A DNA stretch of 64,000 nt from Prorocentrum cordatum (lineage: Eukaryota; Sar; Dinophyceae; Prorocentrales; Prorocentraceae): contig CAUYUJ010016139.1 in assembly GCA_963575745.1 (NCBI GenBank), positions 230,164 to 294,163 of the forward strand, read 5' to 3'. Positions 2,132 to 57,385 of the stretch are shown piece after piece (within the stretch, counting starts at the first letter, position 1; each line of letters starts with the position of its first letter). The translations under genes and the position numbers were made by a program. A model generated the notes under the pieces. It worked only from the letters and a program-made list of their open reading frames with translations, ran no database searches and was not told where the DNA came from.

Positions 2132-2133
2132 GA

Positions 2134-22612: not shown

Positions 22613-22636
22613 CCAGCTGGAACGCAGGGGGGAAGT

Positions 22637-22651: not shown

Positions 22652-22704
22652 GGAAAAGGTAAATGTGTGCGCGGGGGGAAATCTTGAACCATCGCGACGG
22701 GAAC

Positions 22705-32307: not shown

Positions 32308-32319
32308 CGCGTGAGGAGG

Positions 32320-34849: not shown

Positions 34850-35230
34850 CCGAACGGGCTAAAGGCCCGCGAGAACGCGGGAACTATCGCGGTGGTGGGG
34901 GGGTACCTCGACCCCAGGAGGTAACAACAGTCCGCCCCAGTGGCCCACTGCATCGGTGAAACATGACCTGTCGCTGTCTGCCGACAGGTGTGACCGCCTG
35001 GTGGTGACCCAGCGGCCCTGGTGCCCACAGCCACTCATCCTCCTTCGGAAATCGCACCCTGTGGCGACGAGAAAGGGGGGTTAGCAGCCGATAGCCGCAG
35101 TCATGAGTGTAGAAGCAATGGGACGAGAAAGGGAATCAGCAGCCGATAGCCGCGGAATGACAGACAGCACGTGGCGGCGAGGAAAGGGGAGTGCAGCCGA
35201 TAGCCGCGGAACTGGAGAGTGTTGCGAAGG
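34850..35230 (-). repeat. 3' tail of copy B with three 54-bp motif units
   Basis: GCAGCCGATAGCCGC occurs at 35084, 35139 and 35193 (54-55 bp apart), each after a GGCGACGAGAAAGG-like G-rich tract. 34861-34990 has CCCCAGGAGGTAAC and CGGTGAAACATGACCTGTCG, the diverged form of the tail unit of copy A. Confidence 0.75.
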
Positions 35231-35430
35231 GTCAGGGTGAGCGGCCTGAGCCGCAGGACATCGTCTGGGGTGGGAACGTCCTAGGGAAGTCCCACGGTGC
35301 ACGTGCGCGGCAACTCTTCCGCGGAGGGGGGTCGCGCGTTGCCCCGGCAGCCTGGCGCCGTACGTCTTGGCGGCTTTTGTAGGGCTGGCCTCGCCCTAGT
35401 CGGGGGGCCCCTGCCAGGCCCTCTGCCGGT

Positions 35431-38400
35431 CTACCAGCGCGCGAGCTCCCATCCTCGCTGTCGCTTGTCGGCGTATTGCTCGTCACTCTTCGGGGCTGTC
35501 CTTTTCTCCCTGTTCCCCCACGAAGCCCCTCTCCAAGAGCTATCCTGGTGGTCCCACCCTTCCCATCGCGGCCTAGGGCGCCATGGGGCTCCAGAGCTGG
35601 ATGCTCCCGACCAGGTGGTCTCCCTGTCGGTGTGCGCTGGCGGGGCGGCTGTGCCGTCTCTGGGCCTGCTCCATGGGTGCTGCTGCGCAGCCCCGCTGTA
35701 TGTGCTGGAGGGTTGGGTCTGCTCGTGGTGACTTGCCCTGTCGGGCGGGTCAGGGGGGGTGTGGGTACCGACCTTCTGTCGGACCAAGGGCATGGGTTGC
35801 CCTTGCTGTCTTGCCCCTTGGATGCGCTGGCCCTGGCGCTGCGAAGTAGTAGGCTACGATATTTCTCAGCGACCTTTTGCCATTCAACACGGAGATGGTG
35901 GTGTCTCACCAACTTGTAGGCGTCGTAGCCCGCGGCTTCCCACGCCCGCAGGAATTCTTCGCACCTCTCCCTTGTGTTCCTCCCGGGGTCCGAGTGGATG
36001 TCGACCCGCGGTAGACCCTGTAGGCTGCCTGCCCCGCGAACCCATCCTATCCACGCCCCGTTGAATGCGCCCCCGAGTGCCTTCTGTAATATGGTGACTT
36101 TCTCTTGGGCTGGCTCGTCCCTCTGGATGTCGGCCTCGTCGATGGACCTCATGTACATGGGGGGCCCAGGGGGTCGTTTTGATGTGGAGGTGGAGGTGGG
36201 AGTGGCTCAGCCTGCGGGCGCGGCCGTCTCTCTGGGCTGCTGTCCTGCCGGGGGCTGGGCGCCTGGCGGGTCTCGTGCGCTGGGGCTGCGAGCACCTGGA
36301 TAGACTCCTGACTGCAGTCTGGCCTGCTCCCTTTCCCTCGTAGTTTCCTTTGGTCAGCCCTTTTGTCGCGGATTTCTTCCATGTCCTCTCGGAAGCGGGC
36401 CGTCGCGCAAGGCGTCCAATTGGCAGCTTCCTCCTTGTCGGGGGGGGGCTGCCCCCAGGACTGTCCGCTTGGGGGAGCCGTCTCTGCCGCTGGGGCCGCT
36501 GATATCGGCTTCCTCGTCCTGCTGCGAGGGGCTGTGGATCATGGAGACCGTCCTCTCTGGATTGTCCTCATCCCAGTCTACCTCGAACGGATTATCGCCG
36601 TTACCGTGGGAGTCCCTATCAGAGGATGGTTCCTCCTTTATCTCCTTCGTCGCTTTTGTGGCCCCTGGGGGCTGCTGGCTGAGGTCCTCACCGATGGTGT
36701 GGCCGCCCGAGGTTGGAGGGCGCTTGTGCCAGGCAGCGGCGGGGGAGTGGTCTCCGGCGTCGTTGCTGCTCCGGGCGCTGTGCTCGCCAGCGAGGAATTC
36801 CAGCGTTCCCCCAGCGAGATCGTCCTTCCTGAGGGATAAGACGCGGTGCAGCGTTTCCAACGGCTGCAGCCAGGGGTCTTGCCCTCTTTGGCAGTCGAGC
36901 GCGGCCGAGAGGGTGAGCCAGTCCTCCTGGAACTTTTCGTTACTCCCAGCCAGCTGCGCAATGGCATTGGCTGCTGCAGCTCTATGGCCGTCCCAAGGGA
37001 TGTGAGGGGGGTGCCCATTCTTGGGGATCTGGTCACCGTAGATGGAGTGGAGGAAGCGCAGCAACTGGCTGTGAGGCCAGTCCGATACCTCGCTGTCTCC
37101 ACCCACTTTGTCTCCAACCCTTTCCCCACCGAAAGTCGACCAGCGGATGTAAACCTCATGGTTCCATTCCAGCAGGAAATTCACAAGTTTGCGTACTGGC
37201 CTGTACGACTGCTCTCCTTCCAGGCGGAGGGTCGTGCGCGTGGGCAGCCGGGGGGCGTTGGGAGGAGGGAGTGGCGGCGGGGTGCACCCGAGTGTAGCAT
37301 TGTCCTTGGGGATCCTCACCGACCGCGCCTCGTGCTCGGGGGGGTCGCTTGCGGAGGAGCCCTCCTTTGCGGATGTGCTCACAGGAGACAGGTGTGCGCA
37401 CATGTCGTAGATGCCCCCCTCTTCAGCGCCTTCGCTGGCCACCATGGGAACAGGGCTGGGGGGGTAGATCACGTTGGAGTATGCCTCCAGCACCTCGTTG
37501 AGAGTGCTGGGTGCGACGTCCCAAATGTGCACCAAGCACCTCCTGCAGGCCCAGCTGGCGTTCCACTGTCTTTTGGTCCACAGCGTTAGCATTGTTCCCC
37601 ATGCTGGGAGGCCTGTGCGGTCGCAGCACTCTGCGCCTTCTTTAGGGCGCCAGATGAAGCAACTTAGGGCGGGTGCGCCTGCCGACCATTCGAGCTCTGG
37701 GGTGCGCGTGGGGCAAAAGTCGCACTTTGCCGAGTAGCATTTACTACGGTGCGCCTCCGCACCGAACCTGCCGTCTGAAAGCCTTTGCGGTGGCAGCGTG
37801 GTGCCTGCGCAGGAAGGGCGGTAGTGGCGCGTCGTGCGAAGTAGGAGCTCCTTGAGGGAGACCTCGGCTGCATCGTCCTTTGGCTCCTGCAACCCCAGTG
37901 GGAGCCCGTCCAGGGGTGGGAGGGTTTTGGCCCTCTTCTGTTCCCGGTTGTCCAGTAGCCTGCGCTTGTGCTCCTGCAGTAACCATTGCATGGACTTCTT
38001 GCTGAAGCGCTCCTCGGGGTCCGGCCCAGGGAGAGAAATGCCCTTCTTTCCAATGAGGCAACCCAACAGCGTTCGCAGAGCCATCTGCAATTTTCCCCCT
38101 TCGTGTGCGCCTGCAGGCGGTTCTGAGCGAGTAGCTCGCGGGTGCAGTCGTCCCCCCAAGTGCCTGCGGAGCATTGTAGCCCCCCACTGTTGCATCCGTC
38201 GCAGCTGTACGCGGCCTCCTTCTGAAGCCTGCTGAATCGCCCGTCGTGCACAACTGGGGGAATCAGCGTAGTACCTGGGGCGGGTGAAGCGGGGATGTCT
38301 TCGTCGAGGCGGTGGTTGGAGATGGCAATCCCCCCGCCAATGTACTGTAGGTCCTCCATAATACGTGGGCATCCCAGCCCGATCTCCGACCCTGCCAGCG

Positions 38401-38528
38401 CGGTGTGGAGAAGGCAGATGGAACACTCTCCGTGGTGCAGCTGGTGCACGTCGGCTGGCTGCACAATGTCTTCTAGTACGCGTAGGGGAGCTTCCGATGT
38501 GAAGTCGTGTGCCCCCATCCCAGCCCAA
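35431..38528 (-). CDS. Copy B ORF2, Cys-rich and C-terminal region
   Basis: The longest open piece has 724 codons (38528-36354). The Cys-rich part reads YSCDGCNSGGLQCSAGTWGD and WLCERCW (38.2-38.06 kb), PHD-like in Cys spacing, in a neighbouring frame. Next come a Lys/Arg-rich helix (FSKKSMQWLLQEHKRRLLDN), CDFCPTRTPELEW, RQWNASWACRRCLVHIWDVA, HPPHIPWDGHRAAAANAIAQ and an acidic linker. The C-terminus in a third frame is YADKRQRGWELARW, stopping at 35431. Both the CRRCLVHIWD block and the end peptide match copy A. Function is unknown. Several zinc-binding units could serve nucleic-acid or chromatin binding, but this is inference. Confidence 0.6.
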
Positions 38529-39975
38529 GTCTTTGGACAGCCGTGCTTGTCAGCAATCTTGTGGTGGTGGGCGAAGGTTGCCAGGGTACCCGTGTGGCGG
38601 ATGACCTTGGCGAGCTTGGCGTGGAGATTCTCGAGGTCCACCAGTTGGTGCCCCCACGTCGTGGCGAATTGCGTGCGAAACTCTCGGTGCGTTTCCTGCC
38701 GCGGGAGGCACAGGCCCATCATCGCCTCGAAGATGTCGCCAGTGGCCTCGGGGTTTGGGAAGGGCCATAGCGTGGCCCGGGGTTCACGTAACTGCAGCAT
38801 CATGACCACCAGTAGCACTCCGAGTGCGTGTGGGGGGAGAGCGGCTGTCCGCCAGCACTGATAAGCGTGTCTGTGAGCTTTGTATCGATCCCCTCGTGCT
38901 TGAACAGGGCGCTCAGGTTCTCCATGCCAGGGTGCGACCTGCGCCGACGGCACTTGCAGGTGGTAAAGCTCCATGCCGCTGGAAACTGAAGGAGCGTGCC
39001 CCGGGGGGTGCAGTGACTTTTCTTCTTGGGAACCCTGTTTGAGCCCACCATGTGAGGTAGGGGTGGGAGCATCTCGTACGCGACCCCAAACTGTTTGCCG
39101 TTCCATGGCGTGCCAAGCCCGAAGAACCAGACGATAGCCGCCCACGTGAGGTTGTACACCCGGTTGCTCGCGTCGATCCCGACCTCCGGGTCAAAGCAGT
39201 AACCCACATGGCTCCATGCCTTCCTGTCAAGACTTCCCGGCTGCCTGGGTGTGGCCCCCATCTGCCACTGGTGGGGGTGTAGTCCAGAGATGGTGCACAG
39301 CAAGATGCCCATGAGTGGGTCGTCGACTAGCGCCTGGATGCTGTCCGAGAGGGCGGCCCCGAGCTTTTCCCACGAGAACTGCTCATCCAATGGCGCTGCA
39401 ATGCGGTCTGCGAATGAGCTTTCCAATTTGGCCTTGGCCTTCCTGCTGGCGTCGTCCAGGCCTTGTACGCTGTCGTCCCCGTCGTGTGTGGGAGCAGCTG
39501 GGATCCACGACTCCAGGTCCTTGATGGGGTCGAATCCCTCGTCACAGCGTAGGGGGGTCCGGTTGCCCAGGTTGTCTCCTTGGAAGCGTATCCAAAGCCC
39601 GGCCACCCTCCCATATTCCGAGAGCTCCCTGAGGTGCGATCCCGTGGCCGTGGTGAACATTCTTCCGTCCCCGATTATGATGACGTGTGACCTGGCACGC
39701 GTGATAGCAACATTGACCCTATTGGGATTGTCCATGAAACCCCAGTCGTGGAAGTAGTTGGACCGCATAGTCAGGTAGACCACGATGTCAGCCTCACCGC
39801 CCTGGCTGGAGTCGATGGTGGAGATGTTGAGCCTGCCGCTGGCCAGGTGCTTCCCAGCTACCTGGCATATCCCTGGGAATTGTAGCCCGATTCCGTTGGA
39901 TTGGGAGCTCCATTGCTCAAAGACCTGTTCGTGTCCTCGTTGGTCCCGGGGGTGGGGAGGGGGGTCGCATGGCCC
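38529..39975 (-). CDS. Copy B ORF2, helicase motifs V-VI and helical tail
   Basis: Motif V is DSSQGGEADIVVYLT (near 39810) and motif VI NPNRVNVAITRARSHVIIIG (near 39710), both fully canonical for the UPF1-like branch, unlike copy A's TRAT. The tail matches A (SGLHPHQWQMGATPRQPGSL, NLTWAAIVWFFGLGTPWNGK). Frame changes near 39.97 kb and at 38.83 kb, the latter at a six-G run where copy A has four. Confidence 0.8.
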
Positions 39976-42900
39976 TTAAAACTCGCCTTTGCCATCGCTT
40001 GTCTCCCTGCTCCTAGCCTGTCCGAGGGAGCCGATGATGCTGCGAGCCGACTGGGGCCAGCCCATCTCGAGCACCGCGCACTGAAGCTGGTGCCCTACCA
40101 CGACCATGACAGTGGCCCCTTCTTCCATTGCAGGCATGAGGGCCCTCACTACGTCCACCGTCTGTGCGGCCTCTGGGATGTTCGCGTAGCCAGAATGAAG
40201 ATTGGAGGTGACCTCGACTGAGGGGTTGTCGACCAGGAGAAACCGGTGTCTTTCTTCGGAGTGCTGCGGTGGGGGTTGAAGGTCCCGTAGTAACGTCTCC
40301 ATGGCGTCCGTGGTAGTATTGGCCGACTCTGCTAGCGTTTGGAGCCTCCCTTCGTCCCAGGGTCGTACCTGCTGCCGCGGTATTCCTTCCACGATCGGCC
40401 TCTGCGCCAGTGGGTCGGTGAGCCCAGTCCGAATAGCCTTGTTGTAGAAGGCCACGCTCGGCCACGAGAGGAAGAGAGGATGCGTGCGGTAGCGCAGGCT
40501 CAGCTGTGCCACAGCTGGGCTGTCCCCGCCTAGTGCATTGTACAGCTTGTCAAATATGGAGAGGCAAAGTCCCCTGTCAGCCGCCTTCCTGGAGAGAACC
40601 GTGGGGGGTAGCTGCCTGGGGTCACCAACCAGTATTAGCTGCCCACCTGACCGTATGACACTGACGAGGGACATTGCCGCCATGAGTTCGTGGGCCTGTC
40701 CCGCCTCGTCGATGATGAGTAAAGCTGTTGATACCAGCTTGAGCGACTCAGCTGCCTCGTGGGTAGCGATAACCAGCTTGGCGTCGCTTGGTAGCTGAGA
40801 GCGGAAGGACTGGAGCTCCTTGGATGGTCCATTCTGTTTGGGCGGGCGATCATGGGTCCTCTGAAATGTCCCACTGGTGTTAAGGACGCGATCTCCGGCG
40901 CCACCCTGGCGTCCTTCGCGAGCCTGACACACCTGTTGGGAAGACCAGTCTCACCAGCCAGCCTGTTCTCCTTGTGCGCAACTCCGAGCCCAATAGCGGG
41001 CTGATCGGCTGCCGTATGCGACCCAGCTGTGAGGGCCACCGACTGCCTCGCGGGAAGTGAACTAGCCCATGCGTCCATGGTGGCCACTGTGAACAGAGTC
41101 TTGCCAGTCCCTGGGGGTCCATGCACAATCGTCACGTGGTGCAGGATGGTGGCGGTCAGTGCTTTGGCCGCGTTGCCGTTTAGACGGTGTCGTCTGGCGG
41201 CCTCGTTGAGTCTGTCGATGGAGGGGAGGTTGCGCACTCGCTGGAAGACCTGCCCGATTGATCCATCAACCTCATCGTCCGTGAACGGTGTGATCGCTTG
41301 CGCTTTGCTGTGCTGCTGCTGCATGGTCTCTTCTACCGCCGTTGCGCCCGGTAAGCTCTGCCCTCCGCTCTCAATGGTGGCCCTTGCCCTTGCCAGGGGA
41401 GAAACGCTGCGCGCCCTCGTATTCTCCACTTCGTTGGCCCTTAGCCTGTCACTCCGTTGGGGGGTCCTTGAGGTAGAACGTTATCACGTCCAGTGGAGAG
41501 CCCACCAATTCGTCCGGTGCCTGTTGCAGCTTGTAGATCTCGGTGATGGCCTGATAGATTTTCCAATGCTGCAGCCTCGATGGCGCTCTGTCCAGTCGGA
41601 ACAGGACTTCTTCCTTGCTGCCTGTACTTGGTTCCTTGCCGAGAGCCAGCAGCTCCTCTGCCTCCTTGGAGTCGCACCATGCCAGAGTCTCGTTGGTGGG
41701 ATACCTTGTGCCTTCCCTGAGATCCATTGCGACGCACTCGTTGCTGGGGATGTGGCCACAAAATTCCGGGGGGCACACAAGCCTGAGAGAGGCGACCTGG
41801 TCCTCTGTGGGATTGGTGAGGCTGAGGAGCAGCGTCCGAGATTGTGAGTCCTGTACGCCGTCCATTCCCTTGAGCGACAGCCGAAATTCGCTAGGCCATT
41901 GCAGGTGTAGGAGTGTCTTCCCGTCCTGGGGGGGGGGGGGGCGCCTGGCGAAGCTTGTACTTATCAAGTGTGTGACAGTCCGACTGCTCGTGTGTGGGGT
42001 TTACCGCCACTTCCGCGGCGCAGCTCCGCTTGCGTGCCAGATCTGTTCTGGCCTTTACTGATCCGTCCCATGTCGTCTCTGTGGGGGCCATGGTCTCCGT
42101 CCATGCCAGTCTGGTCAGAGTGATCGCCCTCTGTCGTAGGTCCTGCTCCCAGTACTTTGGCAGGTTGACTCCTTCAGAGATTTTCCCCAGGGGGACATGC
42201 AGACGGAACTGGGCTCCAAGGCGTTCCGCTGGCACGCAGAACATCTGAACGATGGCCTTGGCCGCGGTGTCAGCAGTGGGGGTCTGGGACGTCAGCGAGG
42301 GGAGTGGGGGGCGGCTGCTGGCCCCACCGGGTTCCTCCCCCCTTCGCGACCCGCCTCGCTCCGTGGGGCCTTGCGACGACGCCCTGCTGGATCCGACCAG
42401 CCTGTCGCACAGGTTGGGGGGGGGCGGCCCCTCTGCGTTGTTGCGAGGGGGAGGCGGGGCGCTCCCTCCCGCAGTCCTTATGCTGAGCCATGGGTTGACC
42501 CTCCCGCCAGGTCGGTACAAGTCTGCTGGCCGCAGGTTGGCGGACGGGATCGTGTCGGTGGGGGTTATGAAGCTGAGCTCGTCGTCCCGAAAAGGAAAGT
42601 CGACCGGTGCGTGGTCCCAGTCATCTGGGAACGTCCAGCCTGGTAGGTGCAGATGGCCCTCTTTCACGTCCGGACAAGGGAGTACCCGCCCAGGCCACTC
42701 GTATCTATCGATTACGATGTTGGCGATGCAGTCTCTGGTCCCTCCTCGGGTCCTGGCCCAGAGGTTGCCCGCCTCAGTGTAGCACCTGGGGTCGGGCCAC
42801 CCGTGTTCCTTCTTCTTGGCGGCCTCCTGGTAATGCTCGATACTCATGAGATGCGTCTTGCCGCCGCAGTGTTTCTGGCAGACCTCGCACCGCCAGCGCC

Positions 42901-43048
42901 ACTCTGCGTGGAAGTGCGCCCGGCGCATCCAGCGGCACTCACGGGCCCGAAAGGGCTTGGTTGCACCTTCCGTAGTGGGGCCACACTTGCAGGGCTCGAG
43001 CGGAGACGGCCATCTGATAGGGGGCCCATTGTTGTTCTTCTTTACCAT
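39976..43048 (-). CDS. Copy B ORF2 start: zinc finger and helicase N-terminal half
   Basis: The ATG at 43048 (gagATGg) opens MVKKNNNGPPIRW, followed by the finger CEVCQKHCGGKTHLMSIEH. Helicase domain 1 has Walker A HGPPGTGKTLFT (near 41115), Walker B LLIIDEAGQAHEL (near 40700), VGDPRQLPP (near 40620) and RYRTHPLFLSW (near 40490). The frame is broken by a 14-G run at 41928-41941 (six G in copy A), near 41.45 kb and near 40.9 kb. Between A and B, the 17 codons HELMAAMSLVSVIRSGG differ at nine sites, all synonymous, which shows selection on the protein before the copies decayed. The N-terminus lacks the PKKRK signal of copy A. Confidence 0.85.
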
Positions 43049-43074
43049 CTCGTGGCGGCGCAATGGGGGGAAGC

Positions 43075-43089
43075 GCAGCCGATAGCCGC
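43075..43089 (-). repeat. AGCCG-AT-AGCCG motif before ORF2 of copy B
   Basis: GCAGCCGATAGCCGC, the consensus form, lies 27 bp upstream of the ORF2 ATG, with a C-rich tract between on the coding strand. It occupies the same place as in copy A. Confidence 0.65.
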
Positions 43090-43329
43090 GGGAGCTGGAA
43101 GAATGAATGCACAGGGGGAAGCTGCTTGAGCCGACGCGGCGCGGGCTCAGATGCTGCGGCGGTCGGGCGGGCGGGGCGCAGAATGAGGGGGGCCGAGGGG
43201 CGGGGCAGGAGAGGGGCGCGCGAGAGAGTGGGCAACCTCAGCCGCCGCGATGGGGTCGCACAGACAGGCAGAGCGGGGGGGGCGCACGGGAAGTGGGCGG
43301 GAATAGGATGGACGGCCCCACTCCACTGA

Positions 43330-43840
43330 GTGTGGGAAATGACTGCAGTAACGCCTGCCCTGCGGAGGGCGTCTGCCCAATACACCCCTATGGTGGCCAG
43401 ACTGTCCGCCGCTTTGTTAAGTCTGCGCCTGACGGCTTGCCAAGTGAGTACCCAGCCTGCTCCCTCGACCTGTCCCAAGGCTTCCTCCATCTGCTGAGCC
43501 AGGTGTAGCCTTCGGTATCTGGCTGTGCCAGCACCGTACCTACTGCAGCTAAGTTGTCGCCGAGAATCCGCGCCGTGCGGGTTGGGCTGTTGATGTGGGG
43601 AAGCAGTGCCAGCCCAGCACGACAGCCTGCAACCTCCGCCATTTGGGCGTTGCTGCATTCTGGGAGAGCGACTATGGCAATGGCGAGCACACGGGGAGCC
43701 CCGGTGCTGGGGTTGCGGTGCCAGAGGATGGCCCCGGCACCAGAAACTTTTTCGCCATCCCCAATGGATCTTGCCCCCCCGTCAAAGGTGACCTCGTAGG
43801 GCCACTAGGCGGAGTCGGAGTTGGGAAAGTGGAAGTCGCG
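43330..43840 (-). CDS. Copy B ORF1: RNase H domain
   Basis: RNase H would remove the RNA strand after reverse transcription. In order are TFDGGARSIGDGEK (first Asp, near 43785), GAGAILWHR, CSNAQMAEVAGCRAGL (Glu, near 43640), ILGDNLAAVGTV (Asp, near 43560) and, after a frame change near 43.5 kb, RRRLNKAADSLATIG (final Asp, near 43410). All four catalytic positions of the D-E-D-D set are identifiable. A TAG at 43807-43805 separates it in frame from the preceding zinc region. It is the last domain of ORF1, followed by about 280 bp before ORF2. Confidence 0.75.
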
Positions 43841-44897
43841 AGCGGTTATCTCGTCGCCTGGCTCAAGTCTGGTGTTGGCCCTGAGAGTGGCGGTGTGCAA
43901 GCAACATTCGCGGCAGAAGGTCGTCGTCCAGCACGCGGTTGGAGAGTTGTCAGTCCTTGGGCAAGGGAACCAACCTCTGCCGGGAGGCATCCACGCGGCG
44001 CGGCTGTGCGTGGCCTGCACTACCACTAGCCTGTGGTCTGGGTTGCAGTGCCTGCTGGCCACCGGGAGCCTCCGAACTTCGCCTCCAGCCCTGTCTGCGC
44101 GCCTTTGTGCGTGGGGCCCGGCAGCCCCACAAATTGTCCCAGTAGGTGGGGGGTTCGGGTTGCACGTGTGGCAACGGTCGCGCCGCACGGTCCACACGGC
44201 CGCTTCGTCGTGTCGGCCGCCCCTGGAAGGGTCGCTCTCAGTCTCCTCGTCCTCGTCACTCTCTTCGTGGGGGTCGATGTCTGGGGTGGCCAGTCCTCGC
44301 AGGACGAGAGTGGCCGCGTCGCTTGCTTCCAGGTGGGTGGCAGTAAGGTTGACGCAGTAGCGGAAGGAGATCTGGTGTAATACTTTGGCCAGCAGCGGCT
44401 GGTGCTCGCCCTCGCTTGTGATTGCCTGGGCGAGGGTGGGCGGATCGTCGGGCCCACGGATGGTGTCCCAGACGAGAGCGGCCGCAGGGCACCAGTGCCA
44501 GACGTGCTCAGTCGTGGCTTCTCCCAGCCCACAGAGAGGGCACCGCCCGTGCGGCCCTTCCCTGATCGGTGGCCTCAAGAGCCCCCCCGAGCCAGCATAG
44601 GCGCAGGCTTGTGGTCTCAGGGGGGCGGAGAGAATCAGGGGGGAGCGTTTGCCAGAGGGCGAGGGTGTGGGGATCGTTGCCGATGCATGTGCAACACCAG
44701 GCAGCCCCCTCGTCATTCGGGCCGGCGGTGATCCACACTCTGCTGGCCGGTGCCCCGCAGGTACATCTGTGGGGTATTCTTTCGTCGTTTCCCCTGCGCC
44801 TTGCCGGGCCTGGCAGGCCGTTGCTGAGCACCCTTAGCACGTGGTACGCACAGGTGAATGTGACGCAGTGCCGGAGCAGCTGCCACTCCTCACCCAA
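43841..44897 (-). CDS. Copy B ORF1: zinc-binding segments between RT and RNase H
   Basis: The clearest part is CPLCGLGEATTEHVWHWCPA (near 44520), the CxxC...H...C pattern of the RT-associated zf-RVT domain that lies between RT and RNase H in many LINEs. Upstream is a second cluster (CTCGAPA ... WCCTC, near 44720) and downstream a third (CHTCNPNPP, FCRECCLH). The frame changes near 44.6 kb at a C/G run. The last stop is TAG at 43807-43805. Confidence 0.65.
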
Positions 44898-48801: not shown

Positions 48802-50144
48802 CTCGGGTCGAAGTGTATGCCGACAGCGTCGTACAACGCCCTGCCGCTTATTCCGAGCCCACGGTAGTAACCCGCTAGGCCGGTGGCCCGGGCTCTCTCC
48901 CCTGCGCTAGGGGGTCTGAGTCCATGGGCCCTTCCTTCCTTGACCAGCCATGTACCCCATGCCTTGACTTTTTCCTCTGCAGCCGGGCTCTCCCTTTCCT
49001 TCCCCGACATCACCAGTCCGAGGCCTTCCGTACATCCTTCGAACCTTTGCTCAGCTCCGCATTCTGCGAATATCTGCGCGGCTCCCAGCCTCAGATCCGT
49101 CGGATTTCGTAGGAACCATCTGTGGGTGCTGTCGTCGTTGTACAAAAGGCAGAGGAGATGAGTCTGGTAGCTACTGGGCAGTATGGCGTCTGGATCGTCT
49201 TGGGCCACTCTGGACTGAGTCCATGTGGGTATTCCTCCGTCGGGCCTGTACGCCCATCTGGGCTCCCAGGGGCTGGGGAGCCGGTGGTACGTTATTGCGT
49301 TGGAGGGAGGGGGGAAGTTCGCCATCCACAATCTCTCCCTTGGGCTGGCCACATGTTCTCCTGCGTTCATCTTGACAGCCCATTCCGGGCTGAGATCGCT
49401 CATGGCGGTTCTCACGGCATCTCGATGTGTCAGAGGCATGGAGGCCACGTTTTCCACTACCACGAGCGTGTTGACATCTGGTCTCCTTTTGTTAGCGAGG
49501 TACCAAGCCGTGGGGATGGCGAAGAAGTGGCGTGACTGTGCGCTTGCCAGTCCATCCCTACCGGCGTGCCTGCCTGCGGTCGACAGGTTGTTACAGGGCG
49601 GTCCTGCGACTATTAGGAAGGTGCTGCCTTGCTCCAGTGAATCTCAGTGTATTTCCCATGGGGATCTGTTGTCCTGGGGATCTTTCCGTCTGAACAGGTC
49701 CCAGACGTCCTCTGCTATCTGCCTGTGCTGTGGGCCTCCGTCCTGGGGATCTGGCGTGTTGGCCCATCTGCGCGCAACCGCCTGAGCCGCCGTCCGGTTG
49801 TGCTCCACGAGCACGGAAGTTCGGAATCTGCTGACAGCGTCCAGCTTTTGGGCGAGGTCTCCTATCGCGAGCCTGGCGATGCCCCATCCGTCGAACAGCG
49901 AGACCAGATGTAGCGGGGCCCCCCCCTCGCCCGAGGTGGACTGGGCCGCGGGCCTGCCCCCCTCTGCCCCTTGTCCCTGCTGTGTGAAGTCCCGCTCAGT
50001 CGGTTCCTGGACCAGCAGTCTGCCCGTGATGTCGTTGGCAGCCTGGTTGGGCTCTAGGTGGACCGTGCCTTGTTCGTGCAAGGACTGCACGGTCTCACGA
50101 ATGGTGTCGTTGTCTAGTCCTGCTACCTGGTAGGAGGCCAGCAC
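48564..50144 (-). CDS. Copy B ORF1: DNMT3-like cytosine-C5 methyltransferase
   Basis: It transfers methyl from SAM to DNA cytosine. Motif I is HLVSLFDGWGIARLAIGD (near 49890); motif II VEHNRTAAQAV; motif IV with the catalytic Cys is VAGPPCNNLSTAG (near 49595); motif VI VVENVASM (near 49455); motif VIII-like ASPRERLWMANFP (near 49325); motif X-like LYDAVGIHFDPRCLQRRV (near 48810). PCNxLS and the ENV...R.R...NxP spacing favour the DNMT3 branch over DNMT1 or bacterial enzymes. One frame runs the whole way, with a single TGA at 49646-49644 between motifs III and IV. The conserved LHEQGT...ERDFTQQ segment just before motif I is shared with copy A and unknown to me. Confidence 0.85.
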
Positions 50145-52550
50145 CTGATTGGGTGGGGCTATCGGGGCGAGCCCGGTTTCGCTCTCCCTGTGCTGTGACC
50201 AGACCTGTTGCAGGACTTCAATGGGCTGCGGGGCTGCGGTGGGTCCATTGGGGGGTGGGGGCTGGTTCTAGGTCTCACCCTCCTGGTTCTCTCCCTTGTC
50301 CCTTGTTGGTCGGATGATGTGCGCGTGCGTCTTCTTACCTCTCGTGTCTGCGCAGGCGCTCTTGGACGGGTCATCCACATTGTCATCAGGGTTGGCAGGT
50401 TGCCTCTCGCAGCCCTCGAGGCCCTCGTCGCTGCTCTGCGTCTCGGTCCTGGTTCCTGTTGGCCTGTTTGCCGATTCAGCCTGCTACGGCTCCTGCTGTG
50501 CGCCCTTTCCGCGCCCCTCCTGGCCCCGCTTCTGCCTGGGTCCTCCCTCTGCTCAGTGGGTTGCTGCTGCGATTCAGTTCCTGGGGCACTTCTTACTCGC
50601 GGTCGCTGCTGCCTTGGAGTGCGTGTCCCTCTCTGCTGTGGGATCGGAGTGGATTCTGTCCCAGCCGCTTGTGGTGGCTCCGGGGGACTCCCCAGGGTAG
50701 GCCCCCCCCCGAGGTTGGGCCAGGTGGGGTCGACCGATCTCAGCCTGGTGGGGCCGGGGCCCGGGCTGTTCCCAGCGGCCACGGATAGTATTCCTTCTAT
50801 TACCTCTGTGGTCAAGGTGGAAAAAGGGGACTGTGGGTTCTCCTGCGTCGAAGTTTCTGCCCACCGCTTCCTGCAGGTGCGCACGTGCGTCGTCCGCCGA
50901 AAGGGCAGCATTATTTGATGTAGTGCTTCTTCCATTAAGGTTCCTCGTGCCGGTTGGGGGGTGCCGTGTCCAGTATGCCTTGAATGGGGCGAGGAGTCTG
51001 TGCGCGACGCGTGCCCTTGTGAATACTTGTCGCATTTGCCTTTCGAGTTGCACCATACACGTGCCCCAGCAGATGGCGCTTAGAACGGTTCCCCACCTTG
51101 CCTCGTCATCGCACCCTAGCCCACTCCACTGAGCTGGTGGGCCTAGGGTGCGGAGCGGTGAGTGCTCGGCCGGGGGGTATCTCCTCTTCCCAGCGGGTCT
51201 CCAGGTGGGGAGCGCGCGACACTGTCTGGGGGTGGCCTCGCCGCACCCGCCTGTACCACTGGCGTCCTCTCAGTCCGTGTCTCGTCTGCTGGTCGGCGAC
51301 TGCAGGGGCCGGCCCTCGTCCTTACGTCCATCTGGTCGCTACTATCTGCTTGTGGGTTAGGAAGCGCAGTAACCGTGTGTGAGCCTCTCGCGCTCTCCGG
51401 CCGGGGGGCCTGTCTGTGGAGGCGGCTCTCCTGAGGTATCCTCTGCTTGTCGCTCCTGTGGGGGTCTTGCTTCCGAAGGCAGGTCTGAGCGTGGGGAAGC
51501 CTGTGCTCGTTGGCTCTGCCCTCTCGTCTGCTCGGTCTCTCGGCGTCCTTCATCCGTCTCCTGCATGTGCTCGTCTGCAGCGCTCTCCCTCGGTGGGGCG
51601 TTGACATAGGAACCTCCTGGGGACGCCGAGGACGTAGTGTTGCCTGCTCTATTGTCACCTTGCCGTCGTCTCGAAATGCCTGATGCCGTCTGGGAGTCCT
51701 GACTGCTGTGGCGCTCTGTTTGCGGAGTCCCTGCTTGTGCGGCTGTCCCTGGGCTCGACTGACGGCCCGGGGGGTCGCTGGGTGGGTTTTGTGGTTCCCG
51801 TGGCACGTTTCGATTCGACGCTTGCGGTTCGCTCCGCTCTCCGCGTTGTGCTCCCTGTGCGTGGCCCTGTCTGGTCCGCGCACTCTGTGCCCCCGTCTCA
51901 CTCGCGAGGTTCGCGCTGTTGTTCCTATGAGTCCTTCGGGGCCTGGGGACCCTCCCTGGGTCGTGCCGCAACCTGTCTTCGCTGGCTGCCCTTTTGAGTC
52001 TCTCATCTAAGGCCTGGATGCCTTCCAGCGTGCCTGGCACCAACCTGCGTGCAGTGCTGCTGTCGACGTCTGCTCCCCTGCTCCCAGGGGCCTCAAGCCA
52101 GGGGTGGTGGGCAGTATATGTGAGGTCTGGCTCAGGTGATAGCCATTGAGCGAAAGGGAGTTGTCTGGTGACCTCCTCCTTTATGCCTAACTCCCTGATG
52201 AGTTGGTTTAGGTGGTCTCTTTCCAGCGAAGCAGGGTCCGTTAGCTGAAGTATCCATATGGCAGCGTACAGGTCCCAGTTGTATATTCTGATGGGTCTGC
52301 CTTCGTCCTGACGCCGCTGTTCGAGTACACGCCTGGTTTGAATACCTCTTGCCAGGTCGTGCGTGCTCTGCTCATCGATGCACGCCTGGAACTTACCGAG
52401 TATGCCTTGTGCGCGCGCGACTGCGTCGCTGTCCGCTCTGACCAGCGTGCCGTCTGCGCGGGCCCTTATCCGCATCTTGTGCGCTAGCACTTCAGCCAGG
52501 GGGGTATGCTCTTGGTCGGGCTGGGCGTGGTAGAGAGTCGACTGCAGCAT
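50145..52550 (-). CDS. Copy B ORF1: low-complexity linker with conserved islands
   Basis: The first part (to about 51960) is still well conserved with A: LAEVLAHKMRIRARADGTLV, QGILGKFQACIDEQSTHDLA, PFAQWLSPEPDLTY. It also contains ILQLTDPASLERDHLNQLIR, which A has lost in frame. The rest is Gln/Arg/Ser/Pro-rich and looks disordered, except MVQLERQMRQVFTRARVAHR (near 51030), matched in A. Frame changes near 51.1 and 50.6 kb. No known domain. Confidence 0.5.
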
Positions 52551-52585
52551 GCCTTCTTGGGGGTATCGCCGATTCCCGAGGCTGG

Positions 52586-54523
52586 CTAGTGCTGATTCCC
52601 AAGTCTTGAGGTGTTGGCCTTGGCGTCGATGCAGCGCCCAGCCTCGCTAGATGCACGGCCCCGTGCAATAGCTGTATGGCTACTCGTATCATCGGTCGGT
52701 CCGCCCCACGGCTGGCCGCTCTCAGGTCGGCGTCCGCTGGCAGGGCGATAGTGATCCACATGGGATGGAGGTGTAGAGGTGTCCGCCTTCCCCGCTAGAG
52801 GTGACCGACACAGCTCCGCCCGCCGCCGCCGCCGCTGAGAGGTGCTCCCCTGGGTGTAGTATGGTGCTATAGTCCCGCAGGCCGTCCCTGCCCTCCACCG
52901 TAGCCCGCCTCGTGGGGAGTTGCCCTTCAAAGCTGCACCCCACCTCGTGGAGCCAATCCTCTGTGATGTCCGGGGGGGGGGGATTCTTAGCATGCTGTCT
53001 CCTTGTCCTCTGGTCGTTCCCTCAGGGAGTGGCCATGCTCTGGTGTGTAAGCTGGCTCCAGTAGAGCCTATTGCTGCCGAGAACATTCGTGACCTGGTGT
53101 GGCTTGGAATCCAAGGGTCGGGGCGCATAGGCCTCGTTCTGGGGGAGCCAATCGACCTTCCCTGCTGGTCGAACGCCGTGACTTCCAGTATCTGCGGTTG
53201 CACAGCTCTCCTTCGGGCCTGTCTCACTGTTTGTTCTGCTAAGGCCGCGATGTGTTCCGCTTGTGCCCTAGGCGACCCTGGGCCCCCCCTGCTTTGCTCC
53301 CTGGTGGGAGTGGCTGGAAATGCACTCACCGCTTGTGAGCCTACCGTGATGCAGCTTGTTTCGCAAAAGGCTGCCGACATGGTAGTCGCCGCCCCGAGTC
53401 GGATTCTGACCTGCGCCATGCGCTGATAGCCCCCAGTGTCCGGAAACCAGGCGAAGACTGCCGAGACTTGCTCGACCGCCCCTGTCCCAACTGTAGCGCC
53501 CACAGCCATTGTGATATCTTGCCTGCTTGTCTGCCCCAGGTCGGCTAGGTTCCATATGAGGTGATGGCCTTCCTCAGGGTCCGATAGTCTGATGAATGAG
53601 GGCCCCCCGTCCCAGTCTCCTTCCAGGAGGACCCTTCGGGGGCAGCGCGCGGGAGAGCCGCTTGCCGATCCAAAGACTAAGGGGGGCTTTTCCCTGAGAT
53701 ATCTCAGTGTGGGGGCCGCTATTCTTTCAGGAGTCTTTAGCAGGAGGATGCCACCCCCCTTGAGGCCCGCTCTGCACCCTAGGGCTGCTGCTGCCTCAGC
53801 AGCAGTTGCCAGTGCAATGCAGGTGGCAGCTCTGGACACAGGGATGTGTACGGAGTCTGATGCTTCCTTGGATCTCCAGGTGCTTCCGTTGGTGTCTCCG
53901 GCTAAGGCAGTCTGAGCGGCTACCTGCAGGGCCTCCATGTGGGGGTCGCTACGTGCCAGGCCCCGTGTCGCTCCGCTGTGAGTGCGCCGAATCACGTGGT
54001 GGTATAGTGGCTCCAGTCCCTCCCTCCGGAGGGTCTCATCCATCGGTAGGGAGATTTTAGTGGTGGCCCACTCAACGTTTACGGCCGCTCGCTCCAGGTC
54101 ATCGGTCATACTCCTCCATCTTAGAATCTGGGCCACCACCGCGTCGTTTTTCTGCTCAGGCGTCAGTATGTGTAGCGCGTCGCTGGTATACGGATCCTCA
54201 CCACCCCAATGCACCACCACCGAGGGCGGGTATACCGTTCTCTGGGGGTGGCTAGCGATATCAAACTGCGCTGCCACCAGCTGCAACAGCGGGGGGCTGC
54301 TTCGCCCAGTTATGATCGGGTTCCCTATGGGGAGCAGGTGTGTGATCATGTTGGTGGCTCTGTATCCCCATTGCGCACTGGCGATGGCGATGAGCTCGGT
54401 GGGATTCGGGCCCCCCGGGGTAGGGGCTCCATGCCCCGTCAGTGCTACAACCCTGCAGGATCTCATTCCTGAAGCTGCCGCGGTCAATGCGGCCTGCAGC
54501 TGGGACGCGTCGGCGTCCGCCAC
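52586..54523 (-). CDS. Copy B ORF1: unrecognised conserved region
   Basis: An open frame of 645 codons. The order of conserved blocks is VVALTGHGAPTPGGPNPTEL, NMITHLLPIGNPIITGRSSP, PSVVVHWGG, SDSVHIPVSRAATCIALATA, GLKGGGILLLKTPERIAAP, GDWDGGPSFIRLSDPEEGHH, RTRPMRPDPWIPSHTRSRMF and TRAWPLPEG; the last quarter is in another frame in A. The TGHGAPTPGGP and LPIGNPIITGR blocks look like a folded alpha/beta domain, but I cannot name it. It lies between the RING finger and the linker to the methyltransferase. Confidence 0.6.
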   Translation of the reverse strand: MADADASQLQAALTAAASGMRSCRVVALTGHGAPTPGGPNPTELIAIASAQWGYRATNMITHLLPIGNPIITGRSSPPLLQLVAAQFDIASHPQRTVYPPSVVVHWGGEDPYTSDALHILTPEQKNDAVVAQILRWRSMTDDLERAAVNVEWATTKISLPMDETLRREGLEPLYHHVIRRTHSGATRGLARSDPHMEALQVAAQTALAGDTNGSTWRSKEASDSVHIPVSRAATCIALATAAEAAAALGCRAGLKGGGILLLKTPERIAAPTLRYLREKPPLVFGSASGSPARCPRRVLLEGDWDGGPSFIRLSDPEEGHHLIWNLADLGQTSRQDITMAVGATVGTGAVEQVSAVFAWFPDTGGYQRMAQVRIRLGAATTMSAAFCETSCITVGSQAVSAFPATPTREQSRGGPGSPRAQAEHIAALAEQTVRQARRRAVQPQILEVTAFDQQGRSIGSPRTRPMRPDPWIPSHTRSRMFSAAIGSTGASLHTRAWPLPEGTTRGQGDSMLRIPPPRTSQRIGSTRWGAALKGNSPRGGLRWRAGTACGTIAPYYTQGSTSQRRRRRAELCRSPLAGKADTSTPPSHVDHYRPASGRRPESGQPWGGPTDDTSSHTAIARGRASSEAGRCIDAKANTSRLGNQH

Positions 54524-54562
54524 GACGATGGTTAGTGTGTTTTGTCATTCGTCCTGCACCCC

Positions 54563-55492
54563 CTACTGCAAACTACTTATTTGATCTGTTCGTGGGCGCT
54601 CGGGCTGAACAATGCTATGGTGGTGCCCGTATCGTCCGCATGTCTGTCTCCAACCAGTGGGGTTCTTGCGATAACGAGTTCGGCTCTCAGTTCCCTGACT
54701 GCTGCCATCAGGAGGGGTGTTGGGAAGGGTCCCGGTCCTCTTGCACTGGCGGGCGTCCCCTGGGGGGTGCCTGGCGAGGATGGCAGCCCATCTACCCTGT
54801 GTGATGCTTGGGGTTGCGTTCGTCCTTTCCTGCCTGGATGGGGGAGCTGGGGCACTACTGCCCTCTTGCCCCTCTTCACTGTCGAGGTCGGAGTCGGAGG
54901 GTGGGGCACTGCTGTCTGGGCCGTAGTCCATGTCATCCTCCACGTCCATGTCGTCAGGTTGTGCTGCGGGCCTCCTGCTGCCTTCAGCGTGTTCCTGTAT
55001 TCTCTGCATGTCCCTGACCGTGACGTATGCATTGGGCCTCCGTATCGTCAGCAGATCCGCCCTCAGGTAGTCCAGTTCCGAAGCTCTTGCACTTATTGCA
55101 GCTGCCAGCTCCGCATATATGATGTGGGGGCTGATTGGGGTTAGCACCCCACCCCTCAGTTGCAGCGTGGCCTGCGTCTCTCTGGGGGCCGGGTGTCCTG
55201 GGAGCAGCGCAGCTATGCTGCCTCTGTCGTTTGCTCTGCAGTAGGGGCAACGGACTGGCATGGCGTTGTCTCCCCCTCTGAAGACCCCTGGCTGACTCAG
55301 TCTCCATTGTTCCAGGCACTCTTTGTGGAACCTGTGTCCGCGCAGGCCCAGAACTTCCACCACCCCTCGGAGCTCCCCCGCGCAGATGGTGCATGTTTGC
55401 TCACCTTCCCCGGTGTCCCATGGCGGTATGTGCCCTGGTTGGCCTGCCTGCCTGGAGGGCAATCTCTGCGTCGCCCGGCGGGCCAGCCGCAC
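54563..55492 (-). CDS. Copy B ORF1: RING-like finger with one ligand lost
   Basis: Matches copy A through the finger at about 55393-55236: CTIC, LRGHRFHKEC, CPYC. The third zinc ligand is Arg (CGC) where copy A has Cys (TGT), so one zinc site should be damaged. An acidic linker follows (DMDVEDDMDYGPDSSAPPSD). The frame differs from the upstream N-terminal domain by a shift near 55.44 kb. Confidence 0.75.
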   Translation of the reverse strand: MRLARRATQRLPSRQAGQPGHIPPWDTGEGEQTCTICAGELRGVVEVLGLRGHRFHKECLEQWRLSQPGVFRGGDNAMPVRCPYCRANDRGSIAALLPGHPAPRETQATLQLRGGVLTPISPHIIYAELAAAISARASELDYLRADLLTIRRPNAYVTVRDMQRIQEHAEGSRRPAAQPDDMDVEDDMDYGPDSSAPPSDSDLDSEEGQEGSSAPAPPSRQERTNATPSITQGRWAAILARHPPGDARQCKRTGTLPNTPPDGSSQGTESRTRYRKNPTGWRQTCGRYGHHHSIVQPERPRTDQISSLQ

Positions 55493-57116
55493 AGGCGATG
55501 GCCGAATAGAAGCTCCCCGTGAGGATCCGCGTTGTATCGCGTGCCTCCTCCTCTGTTAAGCACGCCCGTAGTGACGTAGCTTTGAGAAGGAGACATATTA
55601 ATTGGTTCCCGAAGGGAGCGTAGGCATTGGGGGGTTGCTCCTCCCTTTCTTCCAACGGGCGCCTGATGTCATCTGGGGTGTGCACGTCGGCTACTTGCAG
55701 CCATCTGGTGAGGACTTCGAAGGGCCGGTTGTATATGCCTCGTACCTGTAGCACCGGTTTCAATAGGGGGCCATAGTGGGGCGCGAGGCAGAGCCACATG
55801 GATCTCGATATCCAGCTCGCTGGGTCCAGTCGAATTCTGTTTTCTCTGAGCAGTCCTTCTGCCACTGTTTGGGCCTCTGACCCGTTGAGGGAGGTGCGGT
55901 CCACATTATGTTGCCTGGTCCTACCCACCGCTTCGTCGTCTCTCTGCGTGGCGTCGAGCGTCCGTATCAAGGCGTCCAGGGTTCCTCCCTTACTGGATAC
56001 CTGTGCGGCACCACTGCCGCTGTCGCTGGTGTGCCCCCCAAGCTGCTGTCCGGTGTTCTCGTGCCGCGGGGTGGTGGTGCTTCTTGTTCTTCCTGGTGCG
56101 GGGGAGGTGGGCCGCTGTCTGCCTGCTGCGCCGCCCCCGTGCCCGCTGGGTCGGTCCTGGGTCCAAGCGTTACGCAGCCGTGCGCCGCTTTCGACCGCCC
56201 GTCTGTCTGCTGTCAGCACCGCCTCCTGGAGTTGCCCGCGGGGGTCAAGCCACCCCATCATGCTTTCCTGAAGCGGGGGGTCTATGTAGCCACCCAGAAG
56301 GGGGGATGCGACCGTCCTTCCGATTTCTGTCGTCAGGTTGGCTGCCGCTAGTCCGAGTCTGGGGCGCGCCCCCTCCGGTGTGGCGACTCCGACTTGCTGC
56401 CATGCTTCGCCGGCCCTCCTCGCCAGGGAGCTGGGGATCCCCGCGGCTTCAAACGCGTGCTCGAGTGTGGCCCTTCCTTCTTCAGTCGCCGTCCCCCATA
56501 TGAAGGGTACCACCAGCCGACTCCATGTCATGTTTGGTGGAATATTGTCGTTTGCAACCTGGGCGCGGATGTCCTGGATTTCTTGTAACACTCTCCTGAC
56601 ATGTCCTTCACTTCTGTGAGGTGGGAACGCCGTCGGACTTGGCACTGGGGTGCTCGTGGCGCGTGCGCCGCCACCCCCCCTTGCGTTGCCCTGTGGGCGC
56701 TCATCTCGGGTTACCGGGGCCCCGATTCCTCTCGCTCTCGTCCGCAGGGCTATCGCCAACCGCAGAGCGTCCCCTCTCGGGGTTCCCGGGACCAGACTGT
56801 ACCCTATCAATCTCCCGCTACCTATGGCGGCCGCCACCTCCGTTGCTTCAATCGCTTCGGGGTTTGTGTCAGTCGCCCATGTCCTGTCTGCCGGAGTGAT
56901 GGCGAGGGCCTGGTCGATGAACGTACCCCCGATTTCCCTTCGGAGCCATTCCATATCCCCGACCTGGAGGCCTTCGAAGCAATGTTGGTGCCTGGTCCTT
57001 GGGTCCCGTGTGCCTCGGGTCGGGCCTCTAGCCGCCGGGGGTTGCGCCGGTACGTTGGCGGTAGGTGCGCTCAGGAAGCACCTCGGGACCCACTCAAGAG
57101 GCACCTCCTGGTCAGG
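55401..57116 (-). CDS. Copy B ORF1: N-terminal domain
   Basis: An open frame with EWVPRCFLSAPTANVPAQPP at its start, then DMEWLRREIGGTFIDQALAI, LIGYSLVPGTPRGDALRLAI, QVANDNIPPNMTWSRLVVPF, a Ser/Arg-rich linker and RGIYNRPFEVLTRWLQVADV. All are matched by A at 30.0-28.6 kb. Upstream it runs directly into leader sequence (57117-57270), so the native N-terminus present in A is missing or spliced out. No named domain. Confidence 0.6.
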   Translation of the reverse strand, partial: PDQEVPLEWVPRCFLSAPTANVPAQPPAARGPTRGTRDPRTRHQHCFEGLQVGDMEWLRREIGGTFIDQALAITPADRTWATDTNPEAIEATEVAAAIGSGRLIGYSLVPGTPRGDALRLAIALRTRARGIGAPVTRDERPQGNARGGGGARATSTPVPSPTAFPPHRSEGHVRRVLQEIQDIRAQVANDNIPPNMTWSRLVVPFIWGTATEEGRATLEHAFEAAGIPSSLARRAGEAWQQVGVATPEGARPRLGLAAANLTTEIGRTVASPLLGGYIDPPLQESMMGWLDPRGQLQEAVLTADRRAVESGARLRNAWTQDRPSGHGGGAAGRQRPTSPAPGRTRSTTTPRHENTGQQLGGHTSDSGSGAAQVSSKGGTLDALIRTLDATQRDDEAVGRTRQHNVDRTSLNGSEAQTVAEGLLRENRIRLDPASWISRSMWLCLAPHYGPLLKPVLQVRGIYNRPFEVLTRWLQVADVHTPDDIRRPLEEREEQPPNAYAPFGNQLICLLLKATSLRACLTEEEARDTTRILTGSFYSAIACAAGPPGDAEIALQAGRPTRAHTAMGHRGR

Positions 57117-57270
57117 AGGACAGCCCGACGGCTGGAGACCGCGCCGAGCAGACTGGCAAGAGTGCACATGCAGAAGACCACTGAGCGAATGTCAGCGAGA
57201 GCCCACGAGGAGTCGCCCTGACGGCGCCAGCTCGCAAGCGAAACTGCCACAAGCTGGCTGGTGGGGATAC
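57117..57270 (-). repeat. 5' leader segment of copy B
   Basis: Nearly identical to 33832-33983 (one or two differences over about 150 bp), including GGCTGGAGACCGCGCCGAGC, AGTGCACATGCAGAAGACCA and CAAGCTGGCTGG. This is far closer than the coding regions are to each other, so A and B share a recently homogenised or recently donated leader. Confidence 0.9.
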
Positions 57271-57385
57271 GCGAAGCGTCAATAATATATTCTCATTATT
57301 ATCATTATTCTGAAAACAAATGATTTTTTTTTTTCCCCCACGCAGCGCGCGCACATTTCAAAGTGCCATCCTGGAAACCAGAACG

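Follow-up and report, generated by a model that had tools for sequence, protein, structure and literature searches.

A candidate giant, target-specific LINE family of the dinoflagellate Prorocentrum cordatum with a RING finger, a DNMT3-like domain and a separate helicase open reading frame

Introduction

Typical long interspersed nuclear elements (LINEs) are 3-9 kb long. In dinoflagellates, a LINE bearing a DNA methyltransferase (DNMT) has been published, the SymbioLINE-Dnmt of Symbiodinium (de Mendoza et al. 2018; PMC5890265, available portion of the text). Virus-derived superfamily 1 (SF1) helicases occur in insect LINEs of the TRAS (R1 clade) and Jockey types according to the accessible parts of two reports (PMC6338049, PMC5563155), in one of which the zinc-binding-plus-helicase layout of TRAS ORF2 is likened to UPF1 (PMC5563155).

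Here we analyse 64,000 nucleotides of Prorocentrum cordatum DNA (the window; GenBank assembly GCA_963575745.1, contig CAUYUJ010016139.1, positions 230,164 to 294,163). The initial annotation of this DNA pointed to methyltransferases in retrotransposons of dinoflagellates and charophytes and proposed a single LINE-like element of about 26 kb with two open reading frames (ORFs). Our comparisons make it very probable that the window holds copies of a giant, target-specific, APE-type non-LTR (non-long-terminal-repeat) retrotransposon family of the dinoflagellate, with a RING finger, a DNMT3-like domain and a helicase in an ORF3 of its own.

Results

Copy A is one 5'-truncated non-LTR retrotransposon (LINE) in which the domains follow in the order RING, DNMT3-like, APE, reverse transcriptase (RT), RNase H and UPF1/SEN1-like helicase, all on the minus strand. 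The catalytic signatures are thus present in the order first annotated, recognised by Pfam or by alignment to relatives; the extent was not, as copy A, annotated as 34850..57270, really ends at 33984, and 57120-57270 is a target duplication rather than element. About 3.0 kb are absent relative to an end-to-end copy on contig C5147, which is 92% identical to copy A. Features are as follows (copies elsewhere in the genome are named by contig).

33984..57119, minus strand: copy A, ends set by the flanking duplication and the sequence
55097..55429, minus strand: RING-H2-like finger, one zinc-ligand cysteine replaced by arginine (PF13639 and alignment)
48753..49925, minus strand: DNMT3-like cytosine-5 methyltransferase, motifs I (SLFDG), IV (GPPCNNLS), VI (ENV) and VIII (PRERLW)
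48564..48566, minus strand: conserved TAG closing ORF1 just past the DNMT domain, position shared by 7 of 9 distinct loci
47605..48279, minus strand: APE-type endonuclease (ORF2), 55% identity to C4825
45899..47076, minus strand: reverse transcriptase (ORF2), three frame pieces, YVDD present (PF00078)
43335..43930, minus strand: RNase H at the end of ORF2, disrupted by a stop and a frameshift; identity to C4825 is 60% and 57%
35859..43102, minus strand: ORF3, frameshifted (tblastn with the 2502-aa C13378 ORF3)
38839..41456, minus strand: UPF1/SEN1-like SF1 helicase core in ORF3 (Pfam and alignment)

Evidence that these domains belong together comes from the rest of the genome. As the initial annotation suggested, we searched the 4.13-Gb assembly (21,875 contigs) for other copies, with the window helicase, DNMT and RT pieces as queries; only the best candidates were scored, so that the counts, at least 124 helicase, 113 DNMT and 119 RT matches, are lower bounds (for RT, 103 of the 119 rows were used, the other 16 being second pieces of the same places). 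Twenty places hold DNMT, RT and helicase in order, namely the window, an exact duplicate on C21211 and 18 others, with a DNMT-RT spacing of 2.9-3.3 kb (4.0 kb in one) and an RT-helicase spacing of 5.4-5.7 kb. Among the matches listed, 43 of 113 DNMT matches are followed by a same-strand RT match no more than 20 kb away (at 2.9-3.3 kb in 39 cases), and 35 of the 39 RT places with a helicase match (out of 103) have it at 5.4-5.7 kb. Copies other than the window's are 55-91% identical in protein to the window pieces and keep both order and spacing. Because this spacing is near-constant across 20 places, the helicase is part of a single LINE-like element. The initial annotation had named as refuting evidence other copies in which helicase and RT blocks are separate, nested elements; the outcome was in favour of the annotation.

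End-to-end copies bear out the predicted size of about 26 kb. The C5147 copy spans 26.5 kb, its spliced-leader relic lying at 363973 and its A-tail at 337475, and C13378:503363-531719 is a 28.4-kb copy lying between a single pair of duplications and 87% identical over 25 kb to the C4825 copy. The distance from the 5' motif described below to the helicase is 19.6-20.1 kb on five contigs, 18.6 kb on one and 28.3 kb on one. Copies that run end to end are laid out as a spliced-leader relic, a 5' leader of ~2 kb, ORF1, ORF2, ORF3 (~2500 aa), a 3' untranslated region and a short A-tail.

The two-ORF structure had to be given up. The element has at least three ORFs, because a TAG closes the DNMT frame and the helicase sits in its own ORF3, which has a full-length relative elsewhere. 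The TAG is shared by the window, L019, L021, L022, L024, L036 and L052 and is missing from L020 and L023 (L018, a duplicate of the window, was not counted), and in P0125, a relative from other public data, the protein stops about two residues or less away from that position. ORF1, possibly a single reading frame from its first coding block (about 2.2 kb) to the DNMT, contains the RING finger followed by the DNMT3-like domain at its C end, and ORF2 the APE, RT and RNase H domains. In the seven TAG loci the gap between ORF1 and ORF2 is 262, 277, 278 or 291 bases, and the relative frame differs between copies, which would suit a frameshift, an overlap or re-initiation. C4825 has a single ORF1 frame over 204513-208601 and carries APE and RT in one 1412-aa frame. 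Third-position periodicity between C13378 and C4825 gives no clear sign of coding over the initial 2 kb and indicates coding from ~2 kb to ~24-25 kb with weak stretches, ORF3 lying mostly in one frame. The window frames are disrupted; besides the broken RT and the altered RING cysteine of copy A, its DNMT has one in-frame TGA at 49644-49646.

A RING match was found in all five copies examined; for the window, PF13639 scores E=1.2e-5 (25.9 bits), below the curated cut-off of 27.3. The DNMT motifs I, IV, VI and VIII are present in order, and motifs IV and VI are intact in the window and its A-type relatives. The window DNMT piece has no Pfam match, single-sequence Pfam and PDB searches with DNMT were also empty, and most C13378 ORF1 frames and P0125 gave no Pfam match. 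When the long DNMT frame served as a protein query, no relatives were returned, probably owing to the length window of the search. A first profile (A2) placed DRM2 at E 0.24 behind an rRNA N-glycosidase entry at 0.028, which we took as chance. With alignment A2, four relatives were found in other public data, and only the profile that included outside relatives reached significance: built from these four and two window pieces, it matches DNMT3A at 1.6e-7, the top 29 of 50 rows all being DNMT3A/B/C, and so upholds the DNMT3-like identity first annotated. Foldseek with a model of a DNMT relative 49% identical to a window-type copy found nothing significant (best E 0.29).

For ORF2, PF00078 matches the window RT at 33.7 bits, above the cut-off of 29.6, and also the 1412-aa C4825 frame above cut-off, where PF14529 falls below it (E=4e-4); the C13378 APE matches PF14529 at 9.4e-7, above cut-off. 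Pfam gave no APE or RNase H match on the window pieces, for which alignment to the C4825 relative gives 55-60% identity. The RNase H of relatives matches PF13456 at 0.0023, below cut-off, and keeps the acidic residues D-E-D-D in three of three. A single-sequence PDB search with the APE-RT frame returned none at E<=1. The 1412-aa C4825 frame joins an RT and an upstream APE-like endonuclease in one protein, as in an APE-type non-LTR retrotransposon, and the hallmarks of LINEs are present (target-site duplications, 5' truncation of copy A and of short fragments, and tails of AAAAA). Self-comparison of the window gave no further terminal repeat pair bounding copy A, and Pfam listed no integrase in the scanned window and relative frames, which are broken. 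A different and very long RT gene was also seen: C16502:100200-100955 carries an RVT_1 match of 141 bits inside a 4427-aa open frame.

ORF3 probably starts in copy A at MVKKNNNGPPIRW, at about 43050. The helicase motifs on the minus strand are GPPGTGK starting at 41120, DEA at 40710 and SSQGGE at 39810, and Pfam finds AAA_11 (1.4e-14) and AAA_12 (1.1e-16) in the window. A relative scores higher (AAA_12 2.1e-27, AAA_11 8e-26), and the core shows the Walker A, DEA, GDP and QGGE motifs; the nearest solved relatives of the C4825 helicase are SEN1 (8e-26) and UPF1 (1.8e-25). The C13378 ORF3 is uninterrupted over 2502 aa, and P0001, a 2541-aa protein in other public data, is collinear with ORF3 over residues 5-2540 at 43% identity. 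IMG/VR scans for relatives found none. The helicase of another public protein, P0003 (3900 aa), is related as well, with 30% identity across 85% of the region used as query, and there may be a wider family of giant helicase proteins.

Comparison of A-type with C4825-type copies by NG86, for pairs with a computable rate of synonymous change (Ks), gave ratios of nonsynonymous to synonymous change (Ka/Ks) of 0.12-0.15 for DNMT, 0.12-0.17 for RT, 0.13-0.21 for APE and 0.27-0.32 for the helicase, and the helicases of copies A and B differ with a Ka/Ks of 0.18 at Ks 1.09. Ratios up to 0.56 occur in some close pairs, which comparisons of dead copies would be expected to give, and the DNMTs of C4825 (L036) and C13378 (L052) give 0.16 despite altered catalytic residues in their subfamily. 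These ratios indicate purifying selection on DNMT, APE, RT and helicase. The observed/expected ratio of CpG is 0.70-0.84 in 10 element pieces vs 0.81-0.95 in five small flanks, and 0.91-1.31 in eight other RT loci, also of lower GC. The trend would agree with self-methylation and proves nothing, the controls being small and differing in GC.

At the start of copies C4825, C5147, C13378 and copy B is a relic of the spliced leader of dinoflagellates (DCCGUAGCCAUUUUGGCUCAAG; PMC8045281), best preserved in C4825 (TCCGTAGCCATTTGGCTCAAG). Directly upstream lies GTATCCCYACCAG, exact or with a single base changed, and these 13 bases recur almost unaltered after the A-tail, 12 of 13 being alike in C13378, C5147 and copy B. 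Relic and target duplication are both seen in these three, and in C4825 the 5' end only; together with the 151 bp flanking copy A (below), they mapped the ends as the initial annotation had proposed. Copies with a preserved 5' end sit at GCTTCGC^GTATCCCCACCAG, the edge of an abundant repeat, and the 3' ends, ..AAAAA to ..AAAAAA, abut GTATCCC directly.

The motif GTATCCCYACCAG-N0-4-TCCGTAGCC has 267 exact occurrences in the genome vs none in the reversed control. We sampled the first 20 listed (L055-L074), the motif itself being the selection criterion. All 20 continue with the remainder of the leader (GGCTCAAG); on the upstream side, 18 have a GACGCTTCGC-like stretch and two the A-tail of another element (L058, L066). 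L060 and L061 are mutually identical, and six of the 20 bear the leader of the giant element family (L057, L062, L065, L068, L071, L072).

The undisrupted target GCTTCGCGTATCCCCACCAGCCCATCC, a 27-bp joint motif, occurs 2224 times exactly vs none in the control. Among 10 such empty sites (L075-L084), similarity generally sets in no more than about 10 bases (at most 18) ahead of GCTTCGC and reaches 35 to some 380 bases downstream; five of these sites share 95-99.7% identity across about 360 bases, while their upstream sequences are unrelated. The target thus lies at the edge of an interspersed repeat, which is itself probably mobile. A 5S rRNA or other known RNA gene was dropped as the target, Rfam giving two chance-level matches on the 10 empty sites.

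The remaining features of the window, copy B, the target and the fragments, are these.

11165..33697, minus strand: copy B, 5' end at the spliced-leader relic CGCCGTAGCCCTTGGCTCCAG, 3' end GATCAAAAAAC
28001..28378, minus strand: RING finger of copy B, all ligands present (alignment)
16341..22597, minus strand: ORF3 helicase region of copy B, broken by a (GAT)n expansion at 18885-19674
57258..57286, minus strand: near side of the target, ATTGACGCTTCGC then GTATCCCCACCAG
57120..57270, minus strand: target-site duplication on the 5' side of copy A, 151 bp, starting GTATCCCCACCAG on the minus strand
33833..33983, minus strand: target-site duplication on the 3' side of copy A (self-comparison of the window and sequence)
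33711..33970, minus strand: short 5'-truncated 3' end of another element, host of the copy A insertion (bounded by an A-tail and GTATCCCC)
11034-11151: 118-bp element fragment preceding the far-side target repeat
10400..11033, lower bound approximate, minus strand: far side of the target repeat (GTATCCCCACCAGCCCATCCAGAAACGATGTC...), closely resembling the C13378 3' flank by inspection

Copy B is the adjoining second copy that the initial annotation described as having the same order save a deletion: it is collinear with copy A at 65-73% nucleotide identity and lacks the stretch equivalent to ~43.2-49.8 kb. Most of DNMT, APE, RT and RNase H is gone (junction ~22722-22736), the DNMT breaking off after motif I. 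The expansion within its helicase ORF is of the (GAT)n type and ~0.8 kb long.

Copy A ends in ..GAATCAAAAA. Its two flanks are 98.7-99% identical, that is, two differences in 151 bases. Some 135 of these bases belong to a repeat present elsewhere (81-91% over most of that length), and genome copies of the 151-bp stretch are at most 91% identical, save on the duplicate contig C21211; we read the 151 bp as a target duplication because the two flanks are far more alike than other copies of the repeat. The two differences would make the insertion of copy A fairly recent, and decay since then could, on a rough reckoning, explain its broken frames. Part of the 33711..33970 fragment is likewise a repeat seen elsewhere at 79-91%. 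Read along the minus strand, the site consists of the near-side target, the 151-bp duplication, copy A, the second 151-bp duplication and a short element end, then GTATCCCCACCAG, copy B with its relic, ATATCCCCACCAG, a short element end, GTATCCCCACCAG and the far-side target from 11033 downward. As judged from this order, the site is a single target filled by successive insertions.

A third spliced-leader-headed element enters at window 1-1370 (minus strand), with TTTCCGTAGCCTCTGGCTCAAG after GTATCCCAACCAG, its body extending beyond the window. Sequence upstream of copy A (57258-58862) recurs in pieces at 75-91% upstream of this third element (1371-6969), and therefore the host stretch around both targets looks duplicated. 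The contig C21211 holds exact duplicates of the tested copy A pieces and of the copy A 5' flank, and is probably redundant.

Discussion

Several observations weigh against the giant LINE family as a reading. Among the matches listed, just 28 of 113 DNMT and 39 of 103 RT have a downstream helicase, although such unpartnered matches speak neither for nor against helicase-free copies, and no copy has all ORFs open among the five viewed along their length. Only copy B of the five has complete RING ligands in an unbroken frame; a ligand is lost in copy A and in C5147, a stop interrupts the RING of C4825 and C5147, and the C13378 RING is spread over more than one frame. Some copies have lost the active site of the DNMT (PC to PR in C4825), and motif VI has changed from ENV to ESA/ESP in C4825 and C13378. 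Ks between subfamilies is near saturation, with several pairs lacking a computable value, and the CpG depletion is weak. At the 5' ends, nine of the 100 listed have a listed family match within 40 kb downstream, seven of 51 helicase matches listed for the same range of contigs are preceded by an exact 5' motif, and 14 of the 20 sampled leaders match none of the five reference copies once motif and spliced leader are set aside; the target motif is thus probably common to several families.

The reading that we favour is nonetheless the giant, target-specific retrotransposon family. In such an element, the RNA would be capped through trans-splicing of the host spliced leader, and the endonuclease would nick beside GTATCCC, with the RNA copied in place by target-primed reverse transcription. 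Second-strand cleavage would usually fall ~13 bp off, and 151 bp off in the case of copy A. The DNMT may methylate the newly made DNA, the helicase may unwind the long GC-rich RNA or strip proteins from it, letting the RT read 26 kb, and the RING part may tag host proteins with ubiquitin. A bolder version, which we put forward tentatively, is a self-equipped LINE lineage that has passed the usual LINE size by means of processivity, epigenetic and ubiquitin modules, with a ~27-kb spliced-leader-capped RNA that host trans-splicing would split into ORF mRNAs, and that survives by nesting at a single motif within the end of a different transposable repeat. Within that proposal, trans-splicing into separate mRNAs would explain how a three-ORF RNA is translated.

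A role of the helicase, and perhaps of the RING finger, mainly in countering host silencing or RNA decay, as a UPF1/SEN1-like decoy or silencing suppressor, is a possibility that we grade just as tentatively. SEN1 and UPF1 as nearest solved relatives would suit it, as would a helicase Ka/Ks above that of the RT, expected of a faster-evolving accessory protein, and insect transposon helicases had weak silencing-suppressor activity in a plant system (PMC6338049, available portion); however, the full-length conservation of ORF3 in another source equally fits a core role. It seems unlikely that the DNMT now serves ORF1 chiefly in structure or DNA binding rather than as an active methyltransferase. 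The catalytic changes in C4825 and C13378 and the faint CpG signal are what this would predict, but the intact motifs IV and VI of the window copy and A-type relatives and the low Ka/Ks between subfamilies argue for activity, and retrotransposon DNMTs are capable of de novo CG methylation according to the accessible text of PMC5890265. A chance nest of two or three separate RT, DNMT and helicase elements is highly improbable and was rejected: nesting is real at the window site, where short element ends lie between the copies, but the DNMT-RT-helicase spacing is conserved across divergent copies, the C13378 unit lies within one pair of duplications and copy B has the same order. A one-off recent fusion or an assembly artefact can be dismissed almost outright since, although C21211 indicates that the assembly contains redundant contigs, divergent copies retain order and spacing and relatives of ORF3 and DNMT exist in other public data.

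The giant family shows that a LINE can carry more than 25 kb, with a RING finger, an enzyme of DNMT3 type and a UPF1/SEN1-like helicase in an ORF of its own (2500 aa), the four domains tested (DNMT, APE, RT and helicase) being under purifying selection. Spliced-leader relics mark the true 5' ends of its copies, and its fixed target in an abundant repeat supplies some two thousand exact empty sites for comparison. Three questions then open in one organism: whether a retrotransposon writes methylation on its own insertions, whether copying a very long RNA needs a helicase of its own, and whether host trans-splicing is a solution to translating a polycistronic transposon RNA.

One of the closest described systems is SymbioLINE-Dnmt (PMC5890265, as far as its available text goes). 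Both are dinoflagellate LINEs with target duplications and a DNMT under purifying selection, placed in ORF1 with the RT in a downstream ORF. The available SymbioLINE-Dnmt text contains no occurrence of helicase, RING or zinc finger, and its DNMTs form an orphan Symbiodinium-specific lineage, whereas the profile of the giant element matches DNMT3A/B/C first. SymbioLINEs are without poly-A and the giant element has a short A-tail, a difference that may be of degree; the spliced-leader relic, fixed target and third ORF set the two apart by description only. SymbioDIRS-Dnmt3, described in the same text, is likewise a dinoflagellate retroelement with a Dnmt3-type domain, but of the DIRS type, with a tyrosine recombinase and terminal repeats, in contrast to the APE, target duplications and 5' truncation found here.

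With TRAS and Jockey the giant element shares the addition of an SF1 helicase to a LINE, and with TRAS also a fixed target, telomeric in that case. The helicases of those elements are of plus-RNA-virus origin and lie in ORF2 (TRAS) or ORF1 (Jockey-like), going by the accessible parts of PMC6338049 and PMC5563155, unlike that of the giant element, which is nearest to SEN1/UPF1 and forms the core of a separate ORF of ~2500 aa. Dinoflagellate retrogenes also bear a spliced-leader relic at the 5' end of the reverse-transcribed RNA (PMC6050394, PMC12014239, available portions), but in the giant element the retrotransposon itself is headed by the relic, as are other sequences found at its target. 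In the initial annotation, no element was known that also carries an SF1 helicase ORF and a RING finger; for the helicase by itself the insect LINEs are a precedent, while the combination stands as unreported in the open-access literature searched, where we found no LINE with a DNMT, a RING finger and a UPF1/SEN1-like helicase (most subscription papers lay outside this scope). Judged against the open-access literature searched, this set of domains is new, as are the placing of a UPF1/SEN1-like helicase in a separate ORF3, the size of the element, its spliced-leader 5' end and its target.

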